From positions 1-64,000 of the forward strand of contig NZ_JAINWJ010000015.1 of the NCBI RefSeq assembly GCF_021021415.1: a stretch of DNA of 64,000 bases, in the 5' to 3' direction. Source of the stretch: Martelella mediterranea (GTDB taxonomy: Bacteria > Pseudomonadota > Alphaproteobacteria > Rhizobiales > Rhizobiaceae). Below, in pieces: positions 1 to 53,880 of the stretch (positions are counted from its first letter, which is position 1; each line of letters starts with the position of its first letter). The position numbers and the translations under genes were made by a program. The notes beneath the pieces are model-generated. The model did no database searches and was not told where the DNA came from. It was given only the letters and a program-made list of their open reading frames with translations.

Positions 1-1
1 G

Positions 2-865
2 CAAGGATCAGAGACCAAACCATCAAACAGAGTTGATGACGATTATGTGCGCGCAGCAATCGCCGAGGTCGAGGCTGCGGGCATCACCGACTGGCGCGCC
101 CACGGCCTGTCGCGCCCGCAACTGGCCGAAACGCTGGCAATGTTGCAGATCTACGAAACCGGCGCGGAGACCGGCTGCCCGGCCCATGTCGTGCACTGCT
201 CGGTCGCGCGCGGCTACGAAATTGCCGAGAATTACCGCCGCCAGGGCTTCTACGCGACCGCCGAATGCTGCATCCACTATCTGACGCTGGACGAGGAAAA
301 CGATGTCGCGCGTCTGGGCGGCATGGCCAAGATCAACCCGCCGGTGCGGCCGCGCCGCGAGGTCGAGGCGATCTGGCGTCATGTCGCCGAAGGTCGTGTT
401 TCCATGGTCTCGACCGACCATGTGAGCTGGGCGCGCGAGCGCAAGATCGATCCGGAAATACTCAAATGCGCCTCCGGCGTTCCCGGGCTCGAGGTGATGG
501 TGCCACTGTTCGTCAAGGGCGCGATGGAACGCGGCGTCCCGCTGTTCTGGGCTGCCCGGCTGATGGCCGAAAACCCGGCGCGCCATTTCCGCCTCGATCA
601 TCGCAAGGGCGGCATCGAAGTCGGCCGCGACGCCGACCTGACCGTGCTTGTCGACCGGCCCGCCGTCTATGAGGCCGCCGCCAGTGCGCATTCGGTTGCC
701 GACTGGTCTCCCTATGACGGCATCGCCTTGCCCTGGACCGTGGCCGCGGTCTGGCATGAAGGCAGGATGGTGTTCGACGGCAACGCGGTTCTGGCCGCAC
801 CGGGCAGCGGCGGCTTTGTCCGCCCGCCCGAAACGCTGGGCCTGCGCCGGGAGTTGCACGCATGA
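2..865 (+). CDS. Hydantoinase / dihydropyrimidinase-like amidohydrolase (5' truncated by window edge)
   Basis: The frame is open from the first bases of the window, so the gene starts upstream; 287 residues of the C-terminal part are visible. The cyclic amidohydrolase (allantoinase/dihydropyrimidinase) fold is shown by VVHCS, which carries a metal-ligand His, by STDH, which carries the catalytic/metal Asp, and by the closing GRDADLTVLVD segment typical of the family. The enzyme would open a five-membered hydantoin ring. It overlaps the next gene (an M20 carbamoylase) by 4 bp, the classical hydantoinase-carbamoylase pairing. With a urocanase paralogue and a DUF917 protein downstream, the likely substrate is hydantoin-5-propionate, giving N-carbamoyl-glutamate. 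That substrate is inferred. Allantoinase is the main alternative, but no other purine catabolism gene is present. Confidence 0.85.
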   Translation, partial: QGSETKPSNRVDDDYVRAAIAEVEAAGITDWRAHGLSRPQLAETLAMLQIYETGAETGCPAHVVHCSVARGYEIAENYRRQGFYATAECCIHYLTLDEENDVARLGGMAKINPPVRPRREVEAIWRHVAEGRVSMVSTDHVSWARERKIDPEILKCASGVPGLEVMVPLFVKGAMERGVPLFWAARLMAENPARHFRLDHRKGGIEVGRDADLTVLVDRPAVYEAAASAHSVADWSPYDGIALPWTVAAVWHEGRMVFDGNAVLAAPGSGGFVRPPETLGLRRELHA

Positions 866-2109
866 AACGCAATCTCCACGCCTCACAGGATCGGATAACC
901 GCTGACCTGACTGCGCTTTCCGCGATCACCGACACCGAAAGACCGTGGACGCGGCGCGCCTTCTCGCCCCTGTTCGACGAGGGGCGTCGCTTCCTGTGGG
1001 ATCGTTTCAAGGCGGCGGGCCTTGATGTTTCGCTGGACGCCGGCGCCAATCTGACCGGAATTCGCCAGGGAATCGCGCCGGACTCCGGCACGATCATGCT
1101 GGGGTCTCATTCCGATACCGTTCCCGATGGCGGGCGCTTCGACGGCGTTGCCGGGGTCGTCGTGGCGCTTGAGGTGGCTCGCATTCTTGCAGACAGGGGC
1201 GTGATGCTGCGCCACAACCTTGCCATCACCGACTTTCTGGCCGAGGAAGTGTCTATTTTCGGTGTTTCGTGCATCGGCTCGCGCGCCATGGCCGGTGTTC
1301 TGCCGCCCGCCTGGCTTGAGCGCCAGAGCGCCGGTCGCGATCTTCGCCGTGCCATTGGTGATGTCGGCGGCAATGCCGAGGCTCTCACCGGACCGTTGCG
1401 CCTCGATCTCAGCGCCTTTCTGGAAATGCACATAGAACAGGGACCCGTGCTGGAACGCGAGGGGCTGAGCCTTGGCATGGTGACCACGATCGTCGGCATA
1501 ACCCGGGTGGAGGTCAGCATCACCGGGCGACCCGAACACGCCGGCACGACCCCGATGGATGGCCGCGCCGACGCCCTGGCTGCCGCCTCCGAACTGGTCC
1601 TTTCAATCCGCGCGAAGGCCGTTGAGATGACGGCAGCGGGGCGGCATTTCACCGCGACGGTGGGCGAGTTCGAGATGAAGCCCAATGCCGCCAATGTCGT
1701 TCCCGGCCATGTCCGCATGCTGATCGATATCCGCGCCGAGACCGAGGCCGACATGGAGGCCTTTCTACGCTGGATCAAGGACAGCGAACAGGATGGGCAT
1801 CAAAACGGCATCGTCATCGAGACCCGCAAGATTTCTGAAAACGATCCGGTGCGCCTTGATGACGCTCTTGTCGACGCCCTGTCCGACGCGGCTTCTGCGC
1901 TGGATATCGGCCACCGGCGCATGGTTTCCGGCGCCGGCCACGATGCAGCGTTCATGGCCCGGCTCTGCCCGGCGGCAATGGTGTTCGTACCCTGTGTCGG
2001 CGGGCGCTCGCATTGCCCGGAGGAATGGGCCGACGCGGCCGATCTGTCTCTTGCCGCCGAGGTCCTGGCGGATACCGTAATCTCGATCGACGCGAACAAG
2101 GAAGGATAA
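862..2109 (+). CDS. M20 family Zn-dependent amidase (N-carbamoyl-amino-acid hydrolase / allantoate amidohydrolase family)
   Basis: A 415-residue M20 metallopeptidase-family amidase of the hydantoinase/carbamoylase group, of normal length. Visible motifs are GSHSDTVPDGG with metal ligand His83, the DGVAGV Asp94, the paired acidic residues of FLAEEVSIF near 128, HIEQGPVLE (His190), the dimerisation-domain stretch RPEHAGTTPMDG (224-234) and GGRSHCPEEW with His384. The family hydrolyses N-carbamoyl amino acids or allantoate to the free amino compound, CO2 and ammonia. It begins inside the stop region of the hydantoinase gene (ATGA overlap), so the two are probably translationally coupled. In this operon the expected job is N-carbamoyl-L-glutamate to L-glutamate, the last step of ergothioneine breakdown. 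Family assignment is firm; substrate is inferred from context. Confidence 0.88.
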   Translation: MKRNLHASQDRITADLTALSAITDTERPWTRRAFSPLFDEGRRFLWDRFKAAGLDVSLDAGANLTGIRQGIAPDSGTIMLGSHSDTVPDGGRFDGVAGVVVALEVARILADRGVMLRHNLAITDFLAEEVSIFGVSCIGSRAMAGVLPPAWLERQSAGRDLRRAIGDVGGNAEALTGPLRLDLSAFLEMHIEQGPVLEREGLSLGMVTTIVGITRVEVSITGRPEHAGTTPMDGRADALAAASELVLSIRAKAVEMTAAGRHFTATVGEFEMKPNAANVVPGHVRMLIDIRAETEADMEAFLRWIKDSEQDGHQNGIVIETRKISENDPVRLDDALVDALSDAASALDIGHRRMVSGAGHDAAFMARLCPAAMVFVPCVGGRSHCPEEWADAADLSLAAEVLADTVISIDANKEG

Positions 2110-2112
2110 CAG

Positions 2113-3204
2113 ATGGCACGCGTTCTCACCGAAAAGGATGTGGAACCCGCCGTGCGCGGCGGCGCGGTCTATGCCGCGGGCGGCGGAGGCTGGGTGCATC
2201 ACGGGCGCATGCTTGGCCGCGCGGCTGTCAATGCAGGCGCGCCGGAATTGGTCTCGGTCGAGGAGCTTGACGATGATGACTGGGTCGCCACCGCCGCCGC
2301 CATCGGCGCGCCCGCCTCGACCACGCCCTGGGAGATGCGCGGCGTCGATTATGTGAAGGCGGTTGAGCTCCTTCAGGAGGCGCTCGGCGCGCGCGTCGCG
2401 GCGCTGATGATCGGGCAGAACGGTAAATCCTCGACCCTCAACGCCTGGCTGCCTTCCGCCATTCTCGGCTGCAAAGTGCTCGATGCGGTTGGCGACATGC
2501 GCGCCCACCCGACCGGCGATATGGGCGCCATCGGCATGGCCGGACGGCCGGAAGAAACGATCCAGACCGCCGTCGGCGGCAATCGCGCGCAAAACCGCTA
2601 TATCGAGCTTGTCGCCAGAGGCGCCACGGGCCGCGTCTCGCCGGTTCTGCGCACCGCCTCGGATATGTCCGGCGGCTTTATTGCCTCGGCGCGCAACCCG
2701 GTACGCGCGTCCTACGTCGCCCGAAATGCGGCCCTTGGCGGAATTTCGAAGGCGCTGGAACTGGGCGAGGCGATTCTGGCGGCCGAACCCAGGGGCTCCT
2801 CCGCCATGCTCGATGCCATCGCCCATACAACTCGCGGAAGCTATATCGTCGAAGGAGAGATCACGGCAAAGAACGTGACCTATACCAACGAGGCCTTCGA
2901 TGTCGGAACCGTGACGATTGGCAGCGGCGACCGCGCCGTCACCTTGCATGTGATGAATGAATATATGGCCGTCGACGCGGCAGACGGACGCCGTATCGCC
3001 ACTTTCCCCGACGTTATCACCACGCTTTCGCCCGACGCGGAACCGCTGTCAGTCGGCGAGCTGAAGGTGGGTATGAAGATCCATGTCCTGCACGTGCCGA
3101 AAGCGCTTCTGCCGATCAGCGCCGGCGTTCTCGATCCCGCCGTCTATGTTCACCCGGAAAAGGTCATGGGCATCGACCTGACCTCTTATGCCTTGGAGGG
3201 CTGA
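2113..3204 (+). CDS. DUF917 / S-methyl-thiohydantoin desulfurase family protein
   Basis: A 363-residue cytoplasmic protein with the hallmarks of the DUF917 family, now named S-Me-THD in Pfam: an N-terminal AAGGGGWVHHGRML glycine-rich segment, SVEELDDDDWV, and a C-terminal beta-rich half ending in HVPKALLPISAG. From memory, members remove sulfur (as sulfide or methanethiol) from the thiohydantoin formed by thiourocanate hydratase, leaving the hydantoin. Older annotations call the family hydantoinase/oxoprolinase-like. Its position between the carbamoylase and the urocanase paralogue fits that role exactly. The start codon lies three bases after the previous stop, with an upstream AAGGA. Whether the leaving group is H2S or CH3SH cannot be read from the sequence. 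Confidence 0.85.
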   Translation: MARVLTEKDVEPAVRGGAVYAAGGGGWVHHGRMLGRAAVNAGAPELVSVEELDDDDWVATAAAIGAPASTTPWEMRGVDYVKAVELLQEALGARVAALMIGQNGKSSTLNAWLPSAILGCKVLDAVGDMRAHPTGDMGAIGMAGRPEETIQTAVGGNRAQNRYIELVARGATGRVSPVLRTASDMSGGFIASARNPVRASYVARNAALGGISKALELGEAILAAEPRGSSAMLDAIAHTTRGSYIVEGEITAKNVTYTNEAFDVGTVTIGSGDRAVTLHVMNEYMAVDAADGRRIATFPDVITTLSPDAEPLSVGELKVGMKIHVLHVPKALLPISAGVLDPAVYVHPEKVMGIDLTSYALEG

Positions 3205-3205
3205 C

Positions 3206-4864
3206 ATGCCGAAGGACAATCCCCGCCATCCGGCTTTTCCGATCCCCTCCGGCCCGACGCTTCGCGCCAAAGGCTGGCGGCAGGAGGCCCTGTTGCGCCT
3301 GATGGAAAATGTCCTGGCCGTCGGCGAGGACCCGGCAAATCTGGTGGTCTATGCCGCTCTGGGCAAGGCCGCGCGCAACAAGGCCGCACATGATGCGATC
3401 CGTCAGGCACTGATCGGCATGGACGAAGACCAGACCCTGGTGATCCAGTCGGGCAAACCCGTCGGCCTGATGAAAACCAGTCCCGAGGCGCCGATCGTGA
3501 TCATGGCGAACTGCAACATCGTCGGGCAGTGGGCCAGGGCCGAAAACTTCTATGATCTGGAACGCAAGGGATTGATCTGCTGGGGCGGCCTCACCGCCGG
3601 GGCATGGCAGTATATCGGCTCGCAGGGCGTTATTCAGGGGACTTATGAGATATTCATGCGGATCGCCGAGCGCCGTTTTGCTGGCAGTCTTTCCGGCCGT
3701 TTCATCTTGACCGCCGGTCTCGGCGGCATGGGCGGCGCCCAGCCGCTGGCCGGACGGATGGCGGGCGCTGCGATCCTATGCGTTGAGGTCGATCCCGCCC
3801 GCGCGGAAGCGCGGAAGAAAATCGGTTATCTCGATGAAATCGCACCGGACCTCGACGCAGCACTCGCGCGGATCGAGCAGGCCCGCGCCGAAGGTCGTGC
3901 GGTCTCAGTCGGGCTCGTCGGCAACGCCGCGGAGATTTACCCCGAGATCGCCCGGCGCGGCATCACCCCCGATATCGTGACTGATCAGACCTCGGCGCAC
4001 GATCTGGTCTATGGTTATATCCCCGAGGGGTACGACATCGAGCGCGTGCGCCGCCTACGCTTGCAGAACCCGGACGAACTGATCGAGGCCGGCCGCGCTT
4101 CAATCACGCGACATGTCTCGGCCATGCTGGATTTTCAGAAGAGCGGCGCCGAAGTGTTCGACAATGGCAATCTGATCCGCACGCAGGCGCAGATCGGCGG
4201 TGTGGAGAATGCCTTCGACATTCCGGTCTTCACCGAAGCCTATCTGCGGCCGCTGTTTTGCCGCGCGATCGGTCCGTTTCGCTGGATGGCGCTGTCGGGC
4301 GAGGCTTCCGACATCGGCAAGATCGACGATCTCGTGCTCGAAATGTTTCCCGACAACAGGATCGTCACCAACTGGATCCGGCTTGCGCGTGAAAATGTTC
4401 CCTTTGAAGGACTGCCCGCCCGTATCGCCTGGCTTGGCCATGGAGAGCGCAGCGCGCTGGCGCGCGCGGTCAACCAGATGGCCGCGACCGGCGCGTTACA
4501 GGGGCCGGTTGCGTTTTCCCGCGATCACCTTGACTCGGCCGGGATGGCGCATCCCAATATCATGACCGAGAACATGCGCGACGGCTCCGATGCGATCGCC
4601 GACTGGCCGCTTCTGGACGCGATGCTGTTATGCTCGTCCCGCGCCGATCTCGTCACCGTGCATTCCGGCGGCGGCGGCTATGCCGGCTATATGACCTCGG
4701 CCGGCGTCACGATCGTCGCCGATGGCACCGAGGCGGCCGACCGTCGCCTCGAAATCGCGCTCGACAATGACACCGGGCTCGGCGTCATCCGCTATGCCGA
4801 TGCCGGCTACCAAGACGCGCTGGACGAGGTGGCGCTTAAAAAAATCAACCATATTCCCGTCTGA
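3206..4864 (+). CDS. Urocanase-family hydratase, probable (S-methyl)thiourocanate hydratase
   Basis: A 552-residue urocanase-fold enzyme using tightly bound NAD. I start it at 3206, one base after the DUF917 stop, because a GGAGGG lies just upstream. Family marks are QSGKPVG (81-87), TAGAWQYIGSQGVIQGTYE, the dinucleotide loop GLGGMGGAQP (171-180), VTDQTSAHD, the catalytic-site Cys352 in LRPLFCRAIGPFRW, and ADAGYQDA near the end. It departs from true HutU at substrate-facing places: CWGGLTAGAW instead of MYGQMTAGSW, DNGNLIR instead of DYGNNIR, and VHSGGGGYAGY instead of HHGGGVGMG (HutU sequences from memory). No hutH, hutI or hutG lies nearby. The neighbours (DUF917, hydantoinase, carbamoylase, MIO-less lyase) point to thiourocanate or S-methylthiourocanate as substrate. 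A plain urocanase is possible but less likely. Confidence 0.85.
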   Translation: MPKDNPRHPAFPIPSGPTLRAKGWRQEALLRLMENVLAVGEDPANLVVYAALGKAARNKAAHDAIRQALIGMDEDQTLVIQSGKPVGLMKTSPEAPIVIMANCNIVGQWARAENFYDLERKGLICWGGLTAGAWQYIGSQGVIQGTYEIFMRIAERRFAGSLSGRFILTAGLGGMGGAQPLAGRMAGAAILCVEVDPARAEARKKIGYLDEIAPDLDAALARIEQARAEGRAVSVGLVGNAAEIYPEIARRGITPDIVTDQTSAHDLVYGYIPEGYDIERVRRLRLQNPDELIEAGRASITRHVSAMLDFQKSGAEVFDNGNLIRTQAQIGGVENAFDIPVFTEAYLRPLFCRAIGPFRWMALSGEASDIGKIDDLVLEMFPDNRIVTNWIRLARENVPFEGLPARIAWLGHGERSALARAVNQMAATGALQGPVAFSRDHLDSAGMAHPNIMTENMRDGSDAIADWPLLDAMLLCSSRADLVTVHSGGGGYAGYMTSAGVTIVADGTEAADRRLEIALDNDTGLGVIRYADAGYQDALDEVALKKINHIPV

Positions 4865-4927
4865 TCCTCCGGAGTGACGGGAGACGCATGCACAACCGAA
4901 AAATACCAATCAAAGAGGGAAATGATC

Positions 4928-5932
4928 ATGAAACTGAAGACCATTCTCACAGGCGCATTGCTGTCGGTCACGCTGGCCTCTGCCGCCTTTGCCCAGGAGG
5001 CGACCGATGAGCTCAAATTCTCATCCTTCCTGCCGGCCTCGACCGTGAACAACGCCGTATCGGTTCCGGCATTCATCGAACGCGCCGAAGAGCTTTCGGA
5101 CGGCGCCTTGCAGATCAAGCTTTATGCCGGCGGCTCGCTGGTTTCGGGCGGCGAGGTGCAGCTCAAGATCGTGCAGGACGGCATAGCCGATATCGCCGAA
5201 ATCCCGATCCCCTACACGCCCGGCCGCATCGAAGGCATGGATGTCTTCGAGCTTCCCAATCTCGCGCGCTCCAACTCCGACGGTTCGCTGGCGACGCTGG
5301 CGCTGATCGAAGAGGGCAAGATCACCGGACTGGATGATCTCGTCGTGCTCGGCGTGTTGCAGGCCGGCCCTTATTTCATCCACACCAGCGAGGAAATCGA
5401 CAGCCTGCGCGACCTGCGCGGCAAGAAACTCAGGGTTTCAGGACAAATGCAGGCACAGATCGTCTCGCGGCTGGGCGCGGTCCCGGTTTCGAATATTCCG
5501 GCCACGGGGCTGGCGGAGAATATCAGCCGCGGCCTGATTGACGGCGCGCTGGTCGATACCGGCAATCTCTACAATTTCGGCATCGGCGATCTCGTGCATT
5601 ATCACGTCACCAACCTTCCGCTGGGCTCGTTCACGGTGTTGTGGGCAATGTCGCGCGATCGCTATGAAAGCCTGTCGCCGAAATCACGCGAGGCGATCGA
5701 CGCGCTGCGCGGCGAGTGGTTCACCGAAGTGCTGGGCGCCAACATGGACAAGCAGACCGATGAAGTGACGGCGCGGCTGGAAGCATCGGGCGATCACCAT
5801 TTCGTCACCTTCAGCGAAGCCGATATGGAGCGGGCCGACAAGGTGCTGCAGCAGGTCGTCGACAACTGGGTCGCCGCCGACCCGGCCAATGCCGATACGC
5901 TGGAAGCCGCGAAGACACACCTGGGCAAATGA
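4928..5932 (+). CDS. TRAP transporter substrate-binding protein, DctP family (system 1)
   Basis: A 334-residue periplasmic binding protein with a clear Sec signal, MKLKTILTGALLSVTLASA, cut after AFA. I chose the ATG at 4928 because AGAGGGA ends seven bases upstream; an ATG at 4922 is too close to it. DctP landmarks are GGSLVSGGEVQLKIVQDGIAD, LRDLRGKKLRVSGQ (the Arg that usually salt-bridges a substrate carboxylate lies in this region), GLIDGALV and the C-terminal helices. It is followed by the small and large membrane subunits, and preceded 63 bp upstream by the hydratase in the same orientation. Substrate inferred from the operon: thiourocanate or S-methylthiourocanate made in the periplasm by the exported lyase, or intact ergothioneine. 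Confidence 0.88.
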   Translation: MKLKTILTGALLSVTLASAAFAQEATDELKFSSFLPASTVNNAVSVPAFIERAEELSDGALQIKLYAGGSLVSGGEVQLKIVQDGIADIAEIPIPYTPGRIEGMDVFELPNLARSNSDGSLATLALIEEGKITGLDDLVVLGVLQAGPYFIHTSEEIDSLRDLRGKKLRVSGQMQAQIVSRLGAVPVSNIPATGLAENISRGLIDGALVDTGNLYNFGIGDLVHYHVTNLPLGSFTVLWAMSRDRYESLSPKSREAIDALRGEWFTEVLGANMDKQTDEVTARLEASGDHHFVTFSEADMERADKVLQQVVDNWVAADPANADTLEAAKTHLGK

Positions 5933-5959
5933 TCGCCCAGCCGGGAGAAGGAACGCGAA

Positions 5960-6517
5960 ATGGCCAGGCTGTCCAATATGCTTGCGGTGGTGGGCCTAAG
6001 CGCCCTTCTGGCGGTGACCGCCCTGACCCTGTTCGATATCGCGCTGCGATCGGACATCGTTTACGGCCTGCGCGATCTTTCCCCCGGCTTCGACAATTTC
6101 GTGATGAACTCCGGCATTGACGGCTTGTCCGATCTATATGCCCCGCTCGGCATCGTCGCCATCGCCTTTTGTTTTCCGGCGATGGCAGCGGGCCGCAGCG
6201 CGATCACGGTGCGCTTCCTGATTGACGTCTTGCCGTGGCGTCTGCGCGAGACTCTGGATGTCTGCGGACACCTGTGCCTGCTGGCGATGTTCGCGCTGAT
6301 GGCGTGGTGGGTCAGCGACTATACGCTCGACATCTGGCGCTCGGGGGAAACGACCTGGCTCCTGAACCTGCCGCGCTGGCCGGCATGGGCGCTCGCCTCG
6401 CTTGCCTTGTGGATGTCGACACTGATCCAGTTCGTCGTTCTGGCGCGGCAATGCGGACGGGCGATTTCGGCATCCGAGCCACCCCCTCTGGAAAACGCCG
6501 CGGAAGGAGCGGAATGA
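5960..6517 (+). CDS. TRAP transporter small permease, DctQ family (system 1)
   Basis: A 185-residue inner-membrane protein with about four hydrophobic segments, the usual shape of a DctQ subunit. Visible features are an N-terminal anchor (SNMLAVVGLSALLAVTALTL), the central conserved GRSAITVRFLIDVLPW stretch matching the 'H(I/V)xVD' region of the family, and a final helix near 140-165. It lies 27 bp after the binding-protein gene behind a GGAGAAGGA ribosome site, and overlaps the large permease gene by 4 bp. It would pair with DctM to form the sodium-coupled membrane complex. Confidence 0.85.
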   Translation: MARLSNMLAVVGLSALLAVTALTLFDIALRSDIVYGLRDLSPGFDNFVMNSGIDGLSDLYAPLGIVAIAFCFPAMAAGRSAITVRFLIDVLPWRLRETLDVCGHLCLLAMFALMAWWVSDYTLDIWRSGETTWLLNLPRWPAWALASLALWMSTLIQFVVLARQCGRAISASEPPPLENAAEGAE

Positions 6518-7809
6518 TGTCGGACATCATGATCGGAGCGGCAGGTCTCGTAACGCTCTTGGCCTTCATTCTGGTCGGCGTCCCAATCGCCGCATCAATG
6601 GCTATCGTCGGCACGCTCTTCACCCTTTTCCTGACCTTCGAAGCCTCGGTCTTCTCGATCTTTGGCGTGGCGACGGTGCAGTCACTTTCCTCTCAGGAAT
6701 TGCTGATCATTCCGCTGTTTATACTGATGGGTGGCTTTTCCATCATTGCCGGAATGTCCTCGGAGATCTATCGGCTTGCGCATGCCTGGGTCGGACATCT
6801 GCGCGGCGGCCTGGCGCTGACGACCGTGGGCAGCAGCGCCGCCTTCGGCGCGATCTGCGGTTCATCCGTTGCCACCACCGCGACCATGGTCCAGATCGCC
6901 CTGCCGGAAATGCGGCGGCGCGGCTATTCCGATTCCCTTATCGCCGGTTCCATCGCCGGCGGCGGAACGCTGGGTTCGCTGATCCCGCCCTCCGTGGTGA
7001 TGGTCGTCTATGCCATCCTGACGCAGCAGAGCGTGCTGTCGCTGTTTCGCGCGGCAATCGTGCCCGCCATTGTCGCAGTGCTGTTTTACGCCATCGCCGT
7101 GCGCGTCTATATCGCCGTTCACGGAGACACGTCGGAAACCCTGGCCCGCGCCACCTGGAGCGAGCGCGCCAAGGCGACGGGACAGGCCAGGCTGACCATG
7201 CTGGTCGGCGTGATCATGCTTGGCGGCATCTACAGCGGCATTTTCACCGTCAACGAAGGTGCGGCGGTCGGCGTTGCCCTGGTGTTCGCGACCTGCATCG
7301 TGCGGGCACGTCTGACCCGCAGCAATTTCATCGACACGCTCAAGAAGGCGGCCTCGAACGTCGCCATGATCTATCTCATTCTGATCGGGGCCGAGATCTA
7401 CAAGAGCTTTCTCACCCTGTCGGGCCTGCCCGAGGCCGCGATCGCCTGGGTCGGCGGCATGGGACTGCCGCGCGAGGCGGTGCTGATTATCGTGATCCTG
7501 CTCTATATCGGCCTCGGCTGCGTGTTCGATGCGATGGCGGCGATGATTTTGACGATGCCGTTCATCTATCCGCTGATCGTCGGGCAACTTCAGTACGATC
7601 CGATCTGGTGGGGGATCATGAATGTGATGATCATCGAGATCGGCATGATCACGCCACCCGTCGGCATCAACCTGTTCGTGCTCAATGGCATCCAGAAGGA
7701 CCTCAAACTGCGCGATATCTACCGCGGCGCGTCGTTCTTCATCGTCGCCGACGTGCTGCGCATCATTTTCTTCCTGCTGTTTCCCGGCCTGGTTCTGCTT
7801 TTCGTCTGA
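6514..7809 (+). CDS. TRAP transporter large permease, DctM family (system 1)
   Basis: A 431-residue polytopic membrane protein of the DctM/ion-transporter superfamily. I take the ATG at 6514, which overlaps the DctQ stop (ATGA) and has AAGGAG upstream; open frame further upstream is only a shadow. Family features are IPLFILMGGF, the FGAICGSSVATTATM loop, AGGTLGSLIPPSVVMVVYA and the second-half repeat ending ITPPVGINLFVL. It completes the third TRAP component of the operon. Two GC-rich hairpins separate it from the lyase gene that follows, which may tune the relative amount of the two messages. Confidence 0.9.
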   Translation: MMSDIMIGAAGLVTLLAFILVGVPIAASMAIVGTLFTLFLTFEASVFSIFGVATVQSLSSQELLIIPLFILMGGFSIIAGMSSEIYRLAHAWVGHLRGGLALTTVGSSAAFGAICGSSVATTATMVQIALPEMRRRGYSDSLIAGSIAGGGTLGSLIPPSVVMVVYAILTQQSVLSLFRAAIVPAIVAVLFYAIAVRVYIAVHGDTSETLARATWSERAKATGQARLTMLVGVIMLGGIYSGIFTVNEGAAVGVALVFATCIVRARLTRSNFIDTLKKAASNVAMIYLILIGAEIYKSFLTLSGLPEAAIAWVGGMGLPREAVLIIVILLYIGLGCVFDAMAAMILTMPFIYPLIVGQLQYDPIWWGIMNVMIIEIGMITPPVGINLFVLNGIQKDLKLRDIYRGASFFIVADVLRIIFFLLFPGLVLLFV

Positions 7810-7826
7810 GCCGGACGACAGCGTCT

Positions 7827-7874
7827 GTGCCGTTAATGCGGCACCTCAGCGTATACCGGCCGCGGTAAGGCCGG
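7827..7874 (+). promoter_or_regulatory. Two tandem hairpins between dctM and the lyase gene
   Basis: GTGCCG-TTAATG-CGGCAC (7827-7844) and CCGGCC-GCGGTAA-GGCCGG (7856-7874) are two perfect 6-bp-stem inverted repeats in the 99-bp gap. Neither has a T-tract, so full termination is unlikely. They look more like mRNA stabilisers or processing sites separating the TRAP message from the exported lyase. The role is inference. Confidence 0.4.
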
Positions 7875-7908
7875 ATCTGCCATTCAAACAAAACAGAGGG
7901 TGACCACG

Positions 7909-9576
7909 ATGAGTTTTATGTTCAGAATTTCGAGACAGCTTATCGCCGGCAGCGCCGGCCTCGCGATCTGCCTTGCCGCAGGTGCGGCACTCGCCGACGA
8001 CTGGGTGATCGCAGGGCAGGACATGACCTTGGAAGATATTGCCGGTATCAGCCATGACAAGGATGCGCGGATAACCCTTACTGGGCCAGCATCCGAGCGC
8101 ATCGAGCAGGGGCTCGACCTGGTCATGGAGGCGGCGTTGCAGGGCAAGGCCGTCTACGGCTTGACCGTCGGCGTCGGCTGGAACAAGGATCGTCCAATCT
8201 TCGCGATGGAGGACGGCAAAAAGGTGCTGGATGCGGACTTGCTGGAGATGTCGCGAACCTTCAACCTCTCCTCGCTGCGTGCACACGGCGCCGGCATCGG
8301 AGATCCGATGCCGGTGGACGATGTTCGAGCGGCCATGGCAATCCGCCTGAACCAGATCGCGACGGGGCGAACCGGCGTGCAGCCGGCGGTGGCGGAAATG
8401 TACCGTCGGTTTATCGAACAGGGCATCACACCGGTCGTGCCCGAACGCGGTTCGGTTGGCGAGGCCGATATCACGCTTGCGTCTCACATCGGACTTGCAA
8501 TGATCGGCGAAGGAGACGTGTTTGTCGAAGGCGAACGGATCTCCGCCGCACAGGCGCTGAACGATGCTGGCATTGCCCCGCTGGAGCCGATCGGCAAGGA
8601 CTTCCTGTCGATCCTGAGCACGAATGCGCTCACTGTTGGCCGGGCGGCTCTGCTGAGCGAGGAGGTCAGGGAGTATCTCGATCTTCAAACCGCGATCTTC
8701 GCACTGCAACTGGAAGGTTTTAACGGCAATATCGCACCTTTCCTCGCCGAGAGCGCCGAGGAGCGGCCCTTTGATGAAAACATTACCGGCGCGGAAAAGG
8801 TCCGTAGCGCGCTCAAGGGTAGCTATCTCTGGGAAACCTCCGCCGGCCGACCTTTGCAGGACCCTCTTTCCTACCGGACGATGGCCTATGTACTGGGCGG
8901 TGCCTATGTGGCATTGCAGGATTTGCAGGACGCGCTCGAAATCCAGACCAATCACAGCGACGACAATCCGATGGTGGTCGTCGGCTCAGTCGATACGGAC
9001 GCCTCCTCGCAGGTCGCCAGCTATCTGATCGAAGGCGATGTCTCGGGTGCGATCTATCCGAGCGCGAATTTCGAAATGCTGCCCATTGCGACGCGCATCG
9101 AGGCTTTGAACACAGCTCTGGTCCGGCTGTCGCAGGCGATCACGATGCAGACCATTCGCCTCGAAAACCCCGAAATGACGGGGCTTTCCCGCTTCCTGGC
9201 GGCAGACGGCAATGCGGGTCACGCCTTCGGCGCGATCCAGAAACCGCTTGTGTCGCTGCTGGTCGAAAACGCGCAGATCGGCGCGCAAGCGCCGGTCGCG
9301 TCGATTGCCATGGCGGGCAATATCGAGGACCTCAACAGCAACGCACCGTTGTCTGTCGACAATCTGGCGCGGATTCTGGACAATATGTACTGGATGTCGT
9401 CGATCGCGTTGCTCCACGCCGCGCAGGCCGTGGATCTGCGCGATAGCCCGGCGCTGGGAGAAGCCTCGGGCGCGCTGCTTGAGGCCTACCGCGCGACCGT
9501 ACCCTTTGTCGAGCAAGACCGCATCTACACCATCGATTTCGCCAACGGCTACGAATTCTTGCGCAATGGTGGATAA
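7909..9576 (+). CDS. Exported MIO-less aromatic amino acid lyase fold enzyme, probable periplasmic ergothionase
   Basis: A 555-residue enzyme of the histidine/phenylalanine ammonia-lyase superfamily with an N-terminal Sec signal: an RISRQ basic end, a hydrophobic core, and cleavage after AALA near residue 29. I start it at ATG 7909, with AGAGGG eight bases upstream. Family marks are YGLTVGVG (83-90, HAL 'YGINTGFG'), LNQIATGRTGVQP, ERGSVG (179-184), LSTNALTVG, QDPLSYRTMAYVLGG and NHSDDNPMV. The Ala-Ser-Gly triad that cyclises into the MIO electrophile is missing: the site reads GSVGEADITLAS, apparently one residue short. From memory, ergothionases (trimethylammonia lyases) have this fold without MIO. 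With thiourocanate hydratase, DUF917, hydantoinase and carbamoylase in the same operon, ergothionase or an S-methyl-ergothioneine version is the best reading. Cytoplasmic location is usual, so the signal peptide is notable. Confidence 0.82.
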   Translation: MSFMFRISRQLIAGSAGLAICLAAGAALADDWVIAGQDMTLEDIAGISHDKDARITLTGPASERIEQGLDLVMEAALQGKAVYGLTVGVGWNKDRPIFAMEDGKKVLDADLLEMSRTFNLSSLRAHGAGIGDPMPVDDVRAAMAIRLNQIATGRTGVQPAVAEMYRRFIEQGITPVVPERGSVGEADITLASHIGLAMIGEGDVFVEGERISAAQALNDAGIAPLEPIGKDFLSILSTNALTVGRAALLSEEVREYLDLQTAIFALQLEGFNGNIAPFLAESAEERPFDENITGAEKVRSALKGSYLWETSAGRPLQDPLSYRTMAYVLGGAYVALQDLQDALEIQTNHSDDNPMVVVGSVDTDASSQVASYLIEGDVSGAIYPSANFEMLPIATRIEALNTALVRLSQAITMQTIRLENPEMTGLSRFLAADGNAGHAFGAIQKPLVSLLVENAQIGAQAPVASIAMAGNIEDLNSNAPLSVDNLARILDNMYWMSSIALLHAAQAVDLRDSPALGEASGALLEAYRATVPFVEQDRIYTIDFANGYEFLRNGG

Positions 9577-9587
9577 AACAACCGCAT

Positions 9588-9617
9588 GGCCGGTACCGGC
9601 GTCGCGTCGGCCCGGCC
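9588..9617 (+). terminator. Possible terminator hairpin after the lyase gene
   Basis: GGCCGG (9588-9593) and CCGGCC (9612-9617) can pair 12 bases after the stop codon, followed by a pyrimidine-rich TTGCCTGTTCTTTCT stretch. The loop is long (18 nt) and the U-tract is broken, so this is a weak candidate for the end of the ergothioneine operon. Confidence 0.3.
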
Positions 9618-9854
9618 TTGCCTGTTCTTTCTAGGTCCGCAATTGAAGGCTTTGGACATCTGGCCCAACCCTGCGGTCAGAACAAGAGCAGTCCGGAGTC
9701 GCGACAAGGCCGAACCGAACATGATCGTTGCCGTTAGAGCCGGATTCAAAAGTTCATGATGGGAAGCAATATCGTGCAAGGCGTCTGGTCATAACCGTGA
9801 TGCTTGCGACCCATGTTGTGGTGCTTGCGATGGACTTCTCCCAATCCTTGGCGA

Positions 9855-10140
9855 GGCGACGGCCCGTTCGCTATAGACCGTATTCCAATGCACGATCGCG
9901 TTGACGACAAGATTGAGGCCGGATGCGCGAAATAAATGGCTTTCGAACAATCGGTCGCGGATTTCGCCGCGCTCGCGGAAGAAAGCAGTGCGCTTCAGCT
10001 CGTGCGCAGCTTCGCCTTTATTCAGGCCGGCCTGGCAGTGGCGGCGCAATGATCGGCTGGTTTACCATTCGATCATGAACAGTGATCGCTCGATCCGCCG
10101 AGTTCCCGTAGCGCTCTTGCGAGCTGGCTTTCTACAGAGA
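9855..10140 (-). pseudogene. Tn3-family transposase remnant (C-terminal DDE region, broken)
   Basis: Minus-strand translation gives pieces typical of the C-terminus of Tn3-family transposases: ARALRELG, then after a frameshift RRIERSLFMIEW, an in-frame TAA at 10062-10064, then [28 protein letters not shown] and [20 protein letters not shown], after which the match is lost. An intact transposase is close to 1000 residues, so only about a tenth remains, with at least one frameshift and one stop. No inverted repeats, resolvase or passenger genes were recognised around it. It marks an old mobile-element insertion directly downstream of the ergothioneine operon, consistent with horizontal movement or later rearrangement. 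Confidence 0.82.
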
Positions 10141-14586: not shown

Positions 14587-15872
14587 TGCGGTCCCATGAT
14601 GAGATTGGGGAGCCAGAGCGTGATTTCCGGCACGGTCGCCAGCAGGATCAGCACGACGATCGGCGGGATCAGCAGTGGCAGGATCGATATCGCCAGCTTT
14701 TCGAAACGCACGCCCGAAACGGCCGACATCAGGTAAAGCCCGACGCCGAGCGGCGGCGTGGCGATGCCTAAAAGCAGGGCAAGGGTGATCACCATGCCGA
14801 ACTGCACCCGGTCGATGCCGAAGGCATCGGCGGCGGGCAGAAGCAGCGGCAGGAGAATGATCTTGGCCGGCGTCGCCTCCATGAAGCAGCCGATGATGAC
14901 CAGCAGCACGATGGTGAAGGCCATGAACACCCACGGCTTGCTGATCGCCTCCAGAATGCCGGAGGCAAAGGCCTGCGGCACCTGCTCGAAGGCAAACAGC
15001 CAGCCCATGATCTGGGAGACGCCGATGATCATCATGATCAGGGAGGAAAGCACCGCACTTTCGGTGAGCGCGTCGCGCACGCCCTTCCATGTCACCGTGC
15101 GATAGAACAGGCCGATCAGCAGCGAATAGCCGCAGGCGATCACGCCGGCTTCGGTGGCCGTGGCAAAGCCGAAGATGATGGCGCTCAGGATGATGGCGGG
15201 CGCGATCAACGCCGGCAGTCCCTCGAGCGTGGCGCGGCGGATATCGCCGATGCTGGCGCGTTTCTCACGCGGCATCGGCGTCCAGATCGAAACGACGCGG
15301 ATATAGAGGATGAAGGAAATCGCCACGAGAATGCCGGGAATGATGCCGGCCAGAAACAGCCGAGCCACCGATTGGTTGGCAAGCCAGGCATAGACGATCA
15401 GGCTGATCGAGGGCGGAACGATCGGCCCGACAAGCGAGGTCGCGACGGTCAGCGCCGCGGAGAATTGAGGCGAATAACCGCGCTCGCGCATGGCCTTCAC
15501 CTCAAGCTGGCCGAGACCGGCGATATCGGCCGTGGCCGCGCCCGAAACGCCCGCAAACAGCAGCGATGCGACGACGTTGACATAGGCAAGTCCGGCGCGG
15601 AAATGGCCGATCAGTGCCAGACAGAAATTGAAGATGCGATCGGTCAAACCAATGGTGTTCATCAGATTGCCGGCCAGCACGAAGAACGGGATTGCGAGCA
15701 GCGCCGGCTTTGCCGCGCCGTCTAGAATCTGTTGCGGGACGACGATGCCCATATCGCCGAAACCGGCCCAGTAGAGGCCGATAATGGCGCCGGCGCCGAT
15801 GGCGACGGTCACCGGCACGCCGATCAGCATCAGCAGCACGAAGCCGCCGATGACAATGAGGCCGAGGGTCAT
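14583..15872 (-). CDS. TRAP transporter large permease, DctM family (system 2)
   Basis: A 429-residue polytopic membrane protein with the DctM pattern: ALLAIPFFVLAGNLM, FAGVSGAATADIAGLG, ATSLVGPIVPPSISLIVYA and the second-half GIATPPLGVGLYLM. It overlaps DctQ upstream and the CMD gene downstream by 4 bp each, so translation of transporter and enzymes is coupled. This is the large sodium-coupled channel subunit that imports the substrate of the CMD/AhpD/RidA/PLP-enzyme operon. Confidence 0.9.
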   Translation of the reverse strand: MTLGLIVIGGFVLLMLIGVPVTVAIGAGAIIGLYWAGFGDMGIVVPQQILDGAAKPALLAIPFFVLAGNLMNTIGLTDRIFNFCLALIGHFRAGLAYVNVVASLLFAGVSGAATADIAGLGQLEVKAMRERGYSPQFSAALTVATSLVGPIVPPSISLIVYAWLANQSVARLFLAGIIPGILVAISFILYIRVVSIWTPMPREKRASIGDIRRATLEGLPALIAPAIILSAIIFGFATATEAGVIACGYSLLIGLFYRTVTWKGVRDALTESAVLSSLIMMIIGVSQIMGWLFAFEQVPQAFASGILEAISKPWVFMAFTIVLLVIIGCFMEATPAKIILLPLLLPAADAFGIDRVQFGMVITLALLLGIATPPLGVGLYLMSAVSGVRFEKLAISILPLLIPPIVVLILLATVPEITLWLPNLIMGPQ

Positions 15873-16390
15873 TCGACGGCTCCTTTTTCGACCGGTTCGA
15901 TATCACGCGGGAACGCTTCGGCCCGGCCGGTGGCGATCTCGATGAAGGACAGCAGGAAATGCAGGAACACCAGCGATGCGGAGACGAACAGCGGCAGCGA
16001 CTGGGTCCAGATCGGCAGGCCGGTGCCATCCATCGGCGCGCGCTGCAGCGAGATCAGCGCCGGCGCGCCGCGCAGGATCGCCGCCATCACGCCCATGCCG
16101 ACAAGGCAGGCGAACATGCCGCCGACCCGCCGCCCGACGGGCGGCAGGCGCGACATGAAGATATCGACAACCACGTCGCGGCGGTTGCGCATATAGACGA
16201 AGAAGCCAAGCAGCAGCATCCAGATGAACAACAGCAGCGTCCACGAGAATATCCAGCCGAAGGCGTGATCGAACACCGCCCGGAAGGCGACGTTGAAAAG
16301 GTTCAGCGCCACCATGACGGCGAGACAGAGGGTCGCCAGCCCCTTGAAGAGGCTGGCGATGGCGTCAAGAAACCCGTCAAGCGCGCGCAT
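15869..16390 (-). CDS. TRAP transporter small permease, DctQ family (system 2)
   Basis: A 173-residue membrane protein with four hydrophobic segments and the DctQ-type central region (FVYMRNRRDVVVDIFMSRLP, equivalent to the family's short conserved loop before VD). It follows the binding-protein gene by five bases and overlaps dctM by 4 bp. Confidence 0.85.
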   Translation of the reverse strand: MRALDGFLDAIASLFKGLATLCLAVMVALNLFNVAFRAVFDHAFGWIFSWTLLLFIWMLLLGFFVYMRNRRDVVVDIFMSRLPPVGRRVGGMFACLVGMGVMAAILRGAPALISLQRAPMDGTGLPIWTQSLPLFVSASLVFLHFLLSFIEIATGRAEAFPRDIEPVEKGAVE

Positions 16391-16395
16391 CGAAC

Positions 16396-17406
16396 TTACT
16401 CTTGCTTCGCTGCCTGAACGGCGTCCAGCAGGCCTTCGGGCAGTTCGCCGTTGTCGGCGCGCTGCTGATAGAAGGCCGCCATCCTGTCGCTGAACTGCGT
16501 GGTGTCGAAGTCGAAGTTCACGGTGACGCCATTCTTGGCTTCAAGGTCCGTCTTCAACGATGCGGCCTGTTCTTCCAGCAACTGACGGGCATAGGCTGCC
16601 GCTTCCTTGTGGGCGCGTTCGAAGGCATCCTGCTGCTCCGGCGTGAGCTTTTCCCAGGCCTTGTCGTTCATCATCCAGGCCACCGCCTGCGGATATTCAT
16701 CAGTACGGATGATGTAGGGCGCGACTTCGTAGAAGCGGGTGGATTCGATCAGCTCCGCCGGAGAGGTCACCGCGTCGACGATGCCACGATTGATGCCGTC
16801 ATAGACCTCGCCCCAGGGCAGAACCCGCACTTCCGCGCCGAGATAGGTCCAGGCGTCGATTACGAGCTGATCCTGGAACTGGCGCATCTTCAGGCCCTTG
16901 ATATCGTCAACGGACTCGACCGGCTTGGTCGAAAGAAGCGTGCGGAACGTGCCGCGCGGCATGTCCGGAATGCTGCCGAGGACGGTGATGTTGGCCTTGT
17001 CCTTCACTTCCGTGAGCCAGGACTGGAACAGATCGCCGTCGATGAAGGTCGACCACTGATCGTAATTGTCGAACAGGAACGGCGCGGAGGCATAGCGGAT
17101 GCTGTCCTCCCAGCGCGACATGAAGGACAGGCTCGACGGCGCGAGCTGGATGATCCCCTGGCTGAGCTGTTCGATGACGGAATCCATCGAGCCGATCTGC
17201 TCATTGGGATAGATCTTCACCTCGATCTCGCCATCGGTGTATTCCGACACCAGATCAGCGAACTTCTGGTAGGCCTTCCCCTCGAAACTGTCGGGGGTCA
17301 TCATCGAGCTCAGCCGCCAGACGTCGGCTGCCGAGGCGGTCTGCACCATTGTGGCCGTTGTGATCGCGATCGTCGCGACGCCTGCGATGCGTGCTATCAA
17401 AGACAT
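16396..17406 (-). CDS. TRAP transporter substrate-binding protein, DctP family (system 2)
   Basis: A 336-residue secreted binding protein. I place the start at 17406 (MSLIARIAGV...), where AGAGGAA precedes the ATG; the open frame further upstream lacks a ribosome site. The signal peptide ends at TASA. DctP features are GKAYQKFADLVSEYTDGEI, IYPNEQIGSMDSVIEQLSQG, DIKGLKMRQFQDQL (ligand-carboxylate Arg region), GIVDAVTSP and the closing helices. It heads the minus-strand operon; the divergent LysR gene 103-124 bp away is the likely regulator. Substrate unknown. Confidence 0.88.
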   Translation of the reverse strand: MSLIARIAGVATIAITTATMVQTASAADVWRLSSMMTPDSFEGKAYQKFADLVSEYTDGEIEVKIYPNEQIGSMDSVIEQLSQGIIQLAPSSLSFMSRWEDSIRYASAPFLFDNYDQWSTFIDGDLFQSWLTEVKDKANITVLGSIPDMPRGTFRTLLSTKPVESVDDIKGLKMRQFQDQLVIDAWTYLGAEVRVLPWGEVYDGINRGIVDAVTSPAELIESTRFYEVAPYIIRTDEYPQAVAWMMNDKAWEKLTPEQQDAFERAHKEAAAYARQLLEEQAASLKTDLEAKNGVTVNFDFDTTQFSDRMAAFYQQRADNGELPEGLLDAVQAAKQE

Positions 17407-34862: not shown

Positions 34863-36179
34863 ATGCAGGAATGGACTTTCGCACTATTGCTGATGTTCGG
34901 CGGCGTGGTGGCCATGCTGCTGATCGGCCTACCGATCGTGTTCGCCTTTCTGGTGGTCAACATTGTTGGCGCCATCATCTTTCTCGGTGGGGAAATCGGG
35001 CTCACGCAAATGGTGAGAAACATGGGGCCCGCCGTCGCCAACTATTCGCTCGCGCCGGTGCCGCTGTTCGTCCTGATGGGCGAGATCATGTTGCAGACCG
35101 GCATGGCATCACGATCGATCGATGCGATTGACCGGCTGATATCCCGCGTGCCCGGGCGCCTCTCCATCGTCGCCGTTCTGAGCGGCACGGTGTTCTCCTC
35201 GCTTTCGGGATCGACCATCGCCAATGTCGCAGTGGTGGGGCGTACGCTTTATCCGCAAATGCACGATCGCGGTTATCACCCGGTCATGGCGGTCGGCCCG
35301 GTCCTTGCCGTTGGCGGCATCGCCATGCTCATTCCGCCATCAAGCCTCGGCGTGCTCCTAGGCAGCCTGGCGCAGATATCCATCAACGACCTGCTGCTGA
35401 CCGCGATCGTTCCAGGCGTCCTGATGGCACTCCTGTTCCTGGGATTCATTATCGTAAGCTGTGTCATCAGGCCCGATATTGCGCCGGTATTTGATGTCAA
35501 GGAGTTGACCTGGAAGCAACGGCTGATGCCGGTGGTAACCCATGTGTTGCCGCTCATGCTGATCTTCGTGGCGGTCGTGGGCAGCATGTTCACCGGCGTC
35601 GCCACGCCGACCGAGGCATCGGCGATCGGCGTGCTTGCAACAATCGTTGCGGCTGCGGGCTACCGGGCACTGTCGATCGAAAGCCTGCGCAAATCGCTGG
35701 TCGAAACCACGAAATTCAGCGGCATGCTCCTGATCATTATCTGTACCTCGGGCACCTTCTCGCAGATCCTCGCCTTCAGCGGCGCGACCCAGAGCCTTGC
35801 CGAGATGGTAACGTCCTCCGGCCTGACACCGCTTCTTCTGGTGCTCGGCATGCTCGCCGTGCTGGTGTTCCTCGGCTGTTTCATGGATCAACTGTCGATG
35901 ATGATGCTGACCCTGCCGATCTTCATGCCGATCGTAGCCGGCCTCGGGATCGACCAGCTCTGGTTCGGCGTGCTCGTGCTGATCGTTCTCGAGATCAGCC
36001 TTATTACACCGCCTTTCGGCCTGCTGCTATTCGTGATGCAAGGCGTCGTCGGAAAGCAGCTGAAGGTCACGACCATCTATGCCGCGGTCGCGCCATTCAT
36101 CCTGCTCGAATTTATCATTCTGGCGCTCATGATCGTCTTCCCGCAGTTGACATCCTGGCTTCCAGGCCTGCTGAGGTAG
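34863..36179 (+). CDS. TRAP transporter large permease, DctM family (system 3)
   Basis: A 438-residue DctM protein. The family pattern is APVPLFVLMGEIMLQTGMAS, FSSLSGSTIANVAVVGRTLYP, GGIAMLIPPSSLGVLLG and, in the second half, FLGCFMDQLSMMMLTLPIF and LITPPFGLLLFVMQG. The start at 34863 follows the DctQ stop directly; the longer open frame upstream is out of register with dctQ. Transcription ends at the strong hairpin 34 bases downstream. Confidence 0.9.
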   Translation: MQEWTFALLLMFGGVVAMLLIGLPIVFAFLVVNIVGAIIFLGGEIGLTQMVRNMGPAVANYSLAPVPLFVLMGEIMLQTGMASRSIDAIDRLISRVPGRLSIVAVLSGTVFSSLSGSTIANVAVVGRTLYPQMHDRGYHPVMAVGPVLAVGGIAMLIPPSSLGVLLGSLAQISINDLLLTAIVPGVLMALLFLGFIIVSCVIRPDIAPVFDVKELTWKQRLMPVVTHVLPLMLIFVAVVGSMFTGVATPTEASAIGVLATIVAAAGYRALSIESLRKSLVETTKFSGMLLIIICTSGTFSQILAFSGATQSLAEMVTSSGLTPLLLVLGMLAVLVFLGCFMDQLSMMMLTLPIFMPIVAGLGIDQLWFGVLVLIVLEISLITPPFGLLLFVMQGVVGKQLKVTTIYAAVAPFILLEFIILALMIVFPQLTSWLPGLLR

Positions 36180-52829: not shown

Positions 52830-53852
52830 ATGAAGTATATCGGAAAGCTCGCGGCTGCATCCGCTCTGTTTTTGATGCAGGCCTCCAACACGGTATGGGC
52901 CGAGACCACGATGCGGTTCTCGATCTGGCTGCCGCCCACTCACCCGCTGGTGGAAGATGTTCTGGTTCCCTTCGCCGAGGATATCGAGAAGGTCACCGAG
53001 AACCGGGTGAAAGTGGAAATACTACCGGCTCCGCTGGGTGCTCCTCCCGCTCACTACGACCTCGTCAAGAACGGCGTCATCGATCTGGCGCAGGGCAACC
53101 AGGCTTACACGCCGGGCCGGTTCAAGACGATGGTCATCGGCGAACTGCCCTTCCTTGGCGACACCGCCGAAGCGACCTCGGTTGCCTACTGGCGCACCTG
53201 GGATGCCATGCTGAAAGATGCCGGCGAATACGACGACGTACACGTGCTGAGCGTATTCACCCACGGGCCCGGCGGGGCCTTTTTCAAGAATCCCGATATC
53301 GACAGCATCGAGCAGATCAATGGCCAGAAGATGCGCGTCGGCGGCGGCGTTGCGCACGAGGTCGCCACCACGCTCGGCGCCGCGCCGGTCGAAGGCCCCT
53401 CGTCCAAGGCATACGAGCTTCTGTCGCAGGGTGTGGCGGATGGCATCCTGTTCCCGCTGGAATCCGTGAAATACTTCAATCTCGACGGCCTGCTGTCGAA
53501 AGGGCTTATGGTTCCCGGCGGTCTCTATAACACCTCCTTCTTCATGATCATGGGCAAGAACACCTGGGAAAGCCTCTCGGAAGAGGACCAGGCCGCCATC
53601 GACAAGATCAGCGGCGAGGCGCTGGCGCGCAAGGCAGGCCAGATGTGGGACCGGATCGACGGCGACGCCCGCGAGGCAATGGCCGGCACGGTTGAAATCC
53701 AGGAGATCTCCGACGCGGATATGGCGTCCCTCAGGGAGAAGCTTCAGCCGGTCATCGAAAAAGGCATCGAAGAAGTCTCCTCCACGGGGATCGACGGCCA
53801 GGCCGCCTATGAGATGATGAAGGCCGAAGTGGCCAAGGTATCGGCCGAATAG
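52830..53852 (+). CDS. TRAP transporter substrate-binding protein, DctP family (system 4)
   Basis: A 340-residue periplasmic protein. The ATG at 52830 follows AAGGAG; the signal peptide MKYIGKLAAASALFLMQAS ends around VWA. DctP features are FAEDIEKVTENRVKVEILPAPLG, INGQKMRVGGGVAHEVATTLGA (substrate Arg in the MRVGG region), LLSQGVADGILFPLES and the C-terminal helices. It leads a P-Q-M operon that continues into an opine-dehydrogenase-family gene and a 3-hydroxyacyl-CoA dehydrogenase, so the imported acid is probably activated and oxidised by neighbouring enzymes. Confidence 0.88.
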   Translation: MKYIGKLAAASALFLMQASNTVWAETTMRFSIWLPPTHPLVEDVLVPFAEDIEKVTENRVKVEILPAPLGAPPAHYDLVKNGVIDLAQGNQAYTPGRFKTMVIGELPFLGDTAEATSVAYWRTWDAMLKDAGEYDDVHVLSVFTHGPGGAFFKNPDIDSIEQINGQKMRVGGGVAHEVATTLGAAPVEGPSSKAYELLSQGVADGILFPLESVKYFNLDGLLSKGLMVPGGLYNTSFFMIMGKNTWESLSEEDQAAIDKISGEALARKAGQMWDRIDGDAREAMAGTVEIQEISDADMASLREKLQPVIEKGIEEVSSTGIDGQAAYEMMKAEVAKVSAE

Positions 53853-53880
53853 GCAATCGCTTGAAGGGGAGGTCACGGGC

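Follow-up and report, generated by a model that had tools for sequence, protein, structure and literature searches.

An Ert-type ergothioneine operon in Martelella mediterranea with an apparently exported lyase and a putative thiourocanate importer

The DNA analyzed here (the window) comprised bases 1-64000 of contig C14 (NZ_JAINWJ010000015.1) of Martelella mediterranea, whose genome totals 5.41 Mb in 106 contigs. Positions 2-9576 harbored eight plus-strand genes of the Pfam families amidohydrolase, M20, S-Me-THD (formerly DUF917), urocanase, DctP, DctQ, DctM and aromatic lyase, assigned below to the breakdown of ergothioneine, a fungal antioxidant. An earlier note, made from the sequence alone, had described this run together with a complete tripartite ATP-independent periplasmic (TRAP) importer; both were confirmed, DctP, DctQ and DctM all scoring above their Pfam cut-offs (PF03480, PF04290, PF06808). 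The lyase lacks the residue triad that forms the 4-methylideneimidazole-5-one (MIO) group. The features were as follows.

1..40, no strand: insertion-element-like end of a repeat that appears to split the hydantoinase gene (first 32 bases searched; about 40 identical in the compared ends)
2..865, plus strand: open frame of the amidohydrolase part (Pfam amidohydrolase)
41..865, plus strand: C-terminal part of ErtD, hydantoin-5-propionate amidohydrolase, from an apparently interrupted gene (NF058538 the best family)
862..2109, plus strand: ErtE, N-carbamyl-L-glutamate amidohydrolase, M20 family (NF058540)
2113..3204, plus strand: thiohydantoin desulfurase, S-Me-THD/DUF917 family (NF058529)
3206..4864, plus strand: thiourocanate hydratase, frame open from 3188 (NF058530)
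4922..5932, plus strand: DctP, TRAP solute-binding protein with leader (PF03480; among the leader-positive DctP controls)
5960..6517, plus strand: DctQ, TRAP small permease (PF04290)
6514..7809, plus strand: DctM, TRAP large permease (PF06808; TIGR00786 above cut-off)
7909..9576, plus strand: ergothionase-type lyase without MIO triad, frame open from GTG 7900 (6s7j; GSVGEADIT)
7909..7995, plus strand: predicted Sec-type leader of the lyase, MSFMFRISRQLIAGSAGLAICLAAGAALA (leader test)

The first four genes were packed as closely as the earlier note had stated (1-4 bases), with a 4-base overlap between the amidohydrolase part and the M20 gene (862-865), 3 bases between the M20 and desulfurase genes (2109/2113) and a single base before the hydratase, if it starts at ATG 3206. 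The TRAP genes began 57 bases past the hydratase end, and the lyase was the last gene, 99 bases past dctM if its start is ATG 7909. The five enzyme families said to be adjacent were thus four packed genes and a lyase set apart behind the transporter. Promoter and terminator scans were not informative (observed 3 and 2, expected 1.6 and 5.0).

Pathway branch was assigned with the curated models and cut-offs of NCBIfam, those for the hydratase and desulfurase being equivalogs. The hydratase passed the thiourocanate hydratase model (NF058530, 1029.7 bits, cut-off 930) and failed its S-methyl counterpart (NF058531, 732.3 vs 880); likewise the desulfurase passed the thiohydantoin desulfurase model (NF058529, 567.3 bits, cut-off 440) and failed that of the S-methyl enzyme (NF058532, 286.3 vs 450). 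These scores assign the run to the non-methylated branch, and the S-methyl branch was rejected, so that of the two substrates proposed earlier, ergothioneine or S-methyl-ergothioneine, the former was retained. The M20 enzyme passed the ErtE model (NF058540, 573.1 bits, cut-off 520), although a generic Zn-dependent hydrolase model (NF009531) scored higher (616, cut-off 486). Among solved structures, the hydratase was closest to 7ned (8.7e-241), deposited as a urocanate hydratase, which we take to be a thiourocanate hydratase. By these models the gene run is a genuine member of the Ert ergothioneine catabolic pathway, already known and curated in NCBIfam (NF058529, NF058530, NF058538, NF058540) and reportedly reconstituted in vitro in five steps. 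The enzyme set was the same and three of the four model-covered enzymes reached their cut-offs; the window differed in its TRAP carrier, where the carrier slot usually holds a major facilitator superfamily (MFS) protein, and in its split hydantoinase gene.

The histidine utilization (hut) pathway, with its MIO-type lyase, HutI and HutG or HutF, did not match the window. By queries with HutH, HutU, HutI, HutG, HutF and HutC, the 64 kb contained no other hut gene: HutH found the lyase (26.5%), HutU the hydratase (49%), and nothing else matched. The supposed absence of hut genes therefore held for the window but not for the genome, in which HutF, HutI, HutH, HutG and HutU matches lay side by side on contig C41. 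EgtD had no match in the genome.

The hydantoinase gene was not whole. It is cut by the contig end at which the window begins: in the numbering of the Paracoccus protein, residues 185-458 were encoded at the start of C14 (82% identity) and residues 1-189 at the end of contig C26 (77% identity). The C14 part had ErtD as its best family (NF058538, 434.8 vs cut-off 600), covering the C-terminal model positions 183-446 of 446, while a full-length relative in Paracoccus locus L005 passed the model with 758. Four places in the genome (C14, C20, C80, C86) carried the first 32 bases of the window, and four (C11, C26, C63, C96) carried the last 33 bases of C26, all eight being contig ends; the compared ends were identical up to base 40 and diverged after it. 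Since both contig ends run into a four-copy repeat, always at contig ends, the gene looks interrupted by a repeated, mobile-type element. The simplest reading is an unassembled insertion-type element in four copies, one within the hydantoinase gene, which would make C26 and C14 neighbors. On C26, a LysR gene stood divergent from the hydantoinase gene start, as in Thalassospira. The genome had one other hydantoinase-like gene (26% identity). With the gene split, this strain has probably lost the hydantoinase step, or relies on another enzyme for it; the earlier statement that every step is encoded does not hold here, with only the C-terminal part of the hydantoinase at 2-865 and the rest on C26.

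The lyase had as its best solved relative the ergothionase of Treponema denticola (6s7j, 4.8e-86, 37% identity), likewise without an MIO triad. In the window lyase, E188-A189-D190, within GSVGEADIT, replaced the triad ASG, and the MIO serine was kept in 0/76 aligned rows; the residue comparison was confined to this triad, some other active-site motifs not being found and the alignment there being unsafe. All eight ammonia-lyase and aminomutase models listed for the lyase in NCBIfam scored it under their cut-offs, and no curated ergothionase model was among its matches. Missing triad and unreached cut-offs led to the rejection of a HutH identity, and upheld the MIO-less lyase of the earlier note. 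The gene was found in 2/61 relatives at E <= 1e-50 (the other protein having 31% identity and a different motif) and, at E <= 1e-60, in 2/385 genomes of a class draw and 1/398 of a phylum draw, the own genome counted each time. A contig scan with three aligned lyases gave 181 relatives, of which the best 80 were kept (79 loci), so that the locus counts below cover the best-matching part.

The window lyase looks exported via Sec, its leader test being positive from starts 7900, 7909 and 7918. Leaders were detected in 66 of 78 scored lyases, window included (79 loci plus the window, minus two with cut-off N-termini). Nine of the 12 leader-negative lyases begin at the enzyme core, while three (L017, L052, L063) carry an extension that misses the rule. 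Cytoplasmic controls were all negative (0/173: hydratase 0/51, desulfurase 0/45, M20 0/38, hydantoinase 0/39), and the exported control DctP was positive in 11/11, one sequence without a start left out. In a tree built by a quick method, leader-less lyases formed one clade of ten rows (support 93) that includes T. denticola, set apart from the leader-bearing window lyase, and a metagenome-assembled genome labelled betaproteobacterial, with a BCCT carrier. The lyase of Cupriavidus neocaledonicus (L057) fell on the leader side, opposite T. denticola; if it is the reported Cupriavidus enzyme, characterized ergothionases bracket the window lyase. As a side observation, a locus labelled Bacillus subtilis (L012) held a Pseudochrobactrum-like cassette of the same order with a near-identical leader (GC 0.526 vs 0.528), probably a contamination.

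Presence of a leader went along with the type of carrier beside the lyase, each importer type being sought with one representative (tblastn above 80 bits; above 150 bits for a flavin adenine dinucleotide (FAD) protein partner). Betaine importers stood beside seven of nine leader-less lyases (BCCT 6, OpuAC 1) and none of the 66 leader lyases (Fisher 1.8e-8, kinship uncorrected). The latter had as partners MFS (31), the FAD protein (13), TRAP (2) or none of these (20). Among the 37 loci with a hydratase or desulfurase, which are not independent since many are close relatives, 33 were leader-positive (MFS 30, TRAP 2, none 1), two leader-less (BCCT, OpuAC) and two ambiguous (MFS). Of 37 loci with the hydratase, 29 had the carrier flanked by hydratase and lyase (MFS 26, BCCT 1, OpuAC 1 and, in the window, TRAP 1); the other eight had a different gene order or no carrier seen.

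The search for the operon in other genomes recovered cassettes of Paracoccus denitrificans and Agrobacterium (L005-L008, L017) with the same order, hydantoinase-M20-desulfurase-hydratase-carrier-lyase, at 67-87% identity, their carrier being a single MFS protein where the window has TRAP. TRAP and MFS interchanged within the clade of the window lyase (Photobacterium, Paracoccus saliphilus, Paracoccus, Agrobacterium, Rhizobium), and in Photobacterium the TRAP genes (DctP 66%, DctQ 55%, DctM 72% identity) immediately preceded the lyase. In that Photobacterium locus (L009), another lyase-like gene spanned two overlapping frames and dctM likewise lay in two frames (15699-17158, 8593-9896), the result of draft-sequence frameshifts or decay.

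A related TRAP system (DctP 45%, DctQ 37%, DctM 48%) was found on plasmid pCSC3H3 of Thalassospira marina (L100), behind a hydantoinase-M20-desulfurase-hydratase-UbiD run. The cassette resembles that of the window's strain in its TRAP and its divergent LysR gene, and differs by the UbiD-family gene between hydratase and TRAP and by the missing lyase; its hydantoinase, desulfurase and hydratase all passed the Ert models. No lyase was present in the 18.9 kb stretch examined, and the plasmid was absent from the lyase matches at E <= 1e-60, a search that did not extend to the chromosome.

The FAD-protein partner (Pfam, one representative) accompanied leader lyases of enterics, Sutterellaceae and Campylobacterota (L019-L024, L026, L028, L029, L038, L040, L048, L081). 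In 12 of these 13 loci its N-terminus read RRxF[LI], typical of export by twin-arginine translocation (Tat), and the protein could possibly reduce thiourocanate in the periplasm. Near the lyases, a porin-type cluster was also seen in 11 loci, one representative being identified. Molybdenum-hydroxylase-type genes, possibly another fate of thiourocanate, lay near the lyases of mostly anaerobes (L016, by Pfam; L050, L054, L055, L077, L079, L080, L083). On pSymA of Sinorhizobium meliloti (L086, 7932-13865), a 43% identical lyase stood near LysR, ATP-binding cassette (ABC) genes and an annotated dimethylsulfoniopropionate lyase gene.

The operon is probably split across the inner membrane, and three lines, namely the lyase leader, the carrier slot held in common and the cassette of Thalassospira, lead us to infer a TRAP importer of thiourocanate. 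Ergothioneine would enter the periplasm, presumably via porins, where the Sec-exported lyase would cleave it to trimethylamine and thiourocanate, and DctPQM would import the latter, a carboxylate. In the cytoplasm, the hydratase would form thiohydantoin propionate, the desulfurase would remove sulfide, the hydantoinase would open the ring and the carbamoylase would release glutamate; the products of these four steps are general background on the pathway. The sequence itself shows the families, the pathway branch, the missing triad, the leader, the carrier slot and the pattern of the split; enzyme activities, export, cargo, flux, regulation and the adjacency of the two contigs are predictions. 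The earlier note had linked the TRAP system to the pathway, and the carrier slot, Photobacterium and Thalassospira bear this link out; the cargo is revised, since thiourocanate rather than ergothioneine is the likely one if the lyase is exported, as it appears to be.

Several points weigh against this reading. The leader test was simple and home-made and was applied to alternative starts, and the window lyase passed it narrowly (hydrophobicity 1.77 vs the limit of 1.7, first passing stretch). Because the leader-less lyases form one clade, few events underlie the contrast between leader and importer, and kinship is not corrected for in the Fisher statistics. The 20 leader lyases without any tested partner type remain apart from the pattern, and the MFS partner does not discriminate the cargo, as its family also contains betaine carriers. 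TRAP genes for ectoines, also zwitterions, exist. TRAP systems were common here, with DctM-like matches at three other places of the window; DctP or DctM queries matched at 14715-17400, 35031-36149 and 52857-55613. DctP relatives (E <= 1e-50) occurred in 8/385 genomes of the class draw, own included, and at the six loci examined from the seven others the Ert cassette was never present. The TRAP subfamily was accordingly rejected as a marker of the pathway. HutH and HutF lay near one of the six, and another adjoined an anhydromuramic acid kinase gene. Related TRAP genes were also found in 11 plasmid records, of which two were examined, one within an Ert cassette and one beside hutC. The cassette of Thalassospira was the single lyase-less one found with a window-type TRAP, in a strain whose chromosome was not searched. 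Four other lyase-less plasmid stretches, described next, had another TRAP or amino-acid ABC genes, and the nearest solved relatives of DctP did not settle its ligand.

In a survey of the desulfurase, sequences above the cut-off were present in 5/372 genomes of the class and 6/374 of the phylum, own in each, leaving nine others. Within 18 kb around these nine were found a distant lyase (7), an MIO-type HutH (1) or no lyase (1), OpuAC in two cases, and neither a window-type lyase nor a window-type TRAP. The distant lyases (27-30% identity, GS[IM]GC motif) accompanied this cassette in further Alphaproteobacteria. Ten plasmid records carried a desulfurase, and the eight examined had a distant lyase (3) or no lyase in the stretch (5); the latter five had a window-type TRAP (1, that of Thalassospira), another TRAP (1) or amino-acid ABC genes (3), the last four counting against a simple rule. 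This second, distant MIO-less type was seen in L132-L137, L139 and L146-L148, with GS[IM]GC in those read, and OpuAC betaine import genes accompanied it in L132, L133 and L148. Eight of ten distant lyases were leader-negative; that of L132 was positive only from its earliest start, and that of L146 also from its annotated start, which counts against a simple rule that the distant type is cytoplasmic.

Among the alternatives, import of whole ergothioneine by the TRAP system, with a cytoplasmic lyase whose N-terminal segment is uncleaved or functionless, survives best and is still unlikely. Bacterial ergothionase has been taken to imply ergothioneine transporters (a review, PMC7653990), and the characterized T. 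denticola enzyme sits in the leader-less clade; against this stand the leaders of 66/78 lyases with clean controls, and the betaine importers that accompany leader-less lyases and are absent from the window. An oxidized or other derivative, such as ergothioneine sulfonate, processed by enzymes in the same order is a distinctly improbable substrate. Its case comes from the ergothioneine sulfonate pathway reported for Agrobacterium radiobacter, and from Agrobacterium lyases 72-73% identical to that of the window. Hydratase and desulfurase nevertheless passed the thiourocanate and thiohydantoin equivalog models, and the same review (PMC7653990) cites an A. radiobacter ergothionase acting on ergothioneine.

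A lyase acting on hercynine, its urocanate being fed into the hut pathway, is less probable again. On a plasmid of Paracoccus saliphilus (L101, 5881-23852), a related TRAP lies beside hutC, followed by hutIHGU and a leader-bearing, 67% identical lyase, and the HutU there is genuine (943.5 bits, compared with 676.4 for the thiourocanate model, cut-off 930); that plasmid's lyase and hut genes might be a hercynine route. The window lyase, in contrast, accompanies thiourocanate and thiohydantoin enzymes, with the hut locus on another contig. S-methyl-ergothioneine as substrate is barely credible: Pfam names the desulfurase family after the S-methyl enzyme, but both S-methyl models failed (732.3 vs 880; 286.3 vs 450).

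Ergothionase activity has been reported from Burkholderia, Cupriavidus, A. radiobacter and T. denticola (PMC13405746). A periplasmic ergothionase was not found in the literature searched, in which one paper (PMC4621440) mentions both terms in a passage on another subject; the leader itself may be in print. None of the papers searched joined ergothioneine and DUF917, and none set out a two-compartment system with TRAP as the carrier, key primary papers not being covered.

For the family as a whole, the evidence leans slightly towards ergothionases that are mostly periplasmic in Gram-negatives, with thiourocanate either imported by MFS or TRAP carriers, among them the window's DctPQM, or reduced by Tat-exported FAD proteins, and with cassettes that lack a lyase, as in Thalassospira, scavenging it from the ergothionase of others. 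If true, most Gram-negatives of the family would need no ergothioneine transporter, and trimethylamine would be released outside the cytoplasm, which bears on its formation from dietary ergothioneine. Thiourocanate would become available to other bacteria, and the leader and neighboring carrier, read together in a genome, would reveal which compound crosses the membrane.

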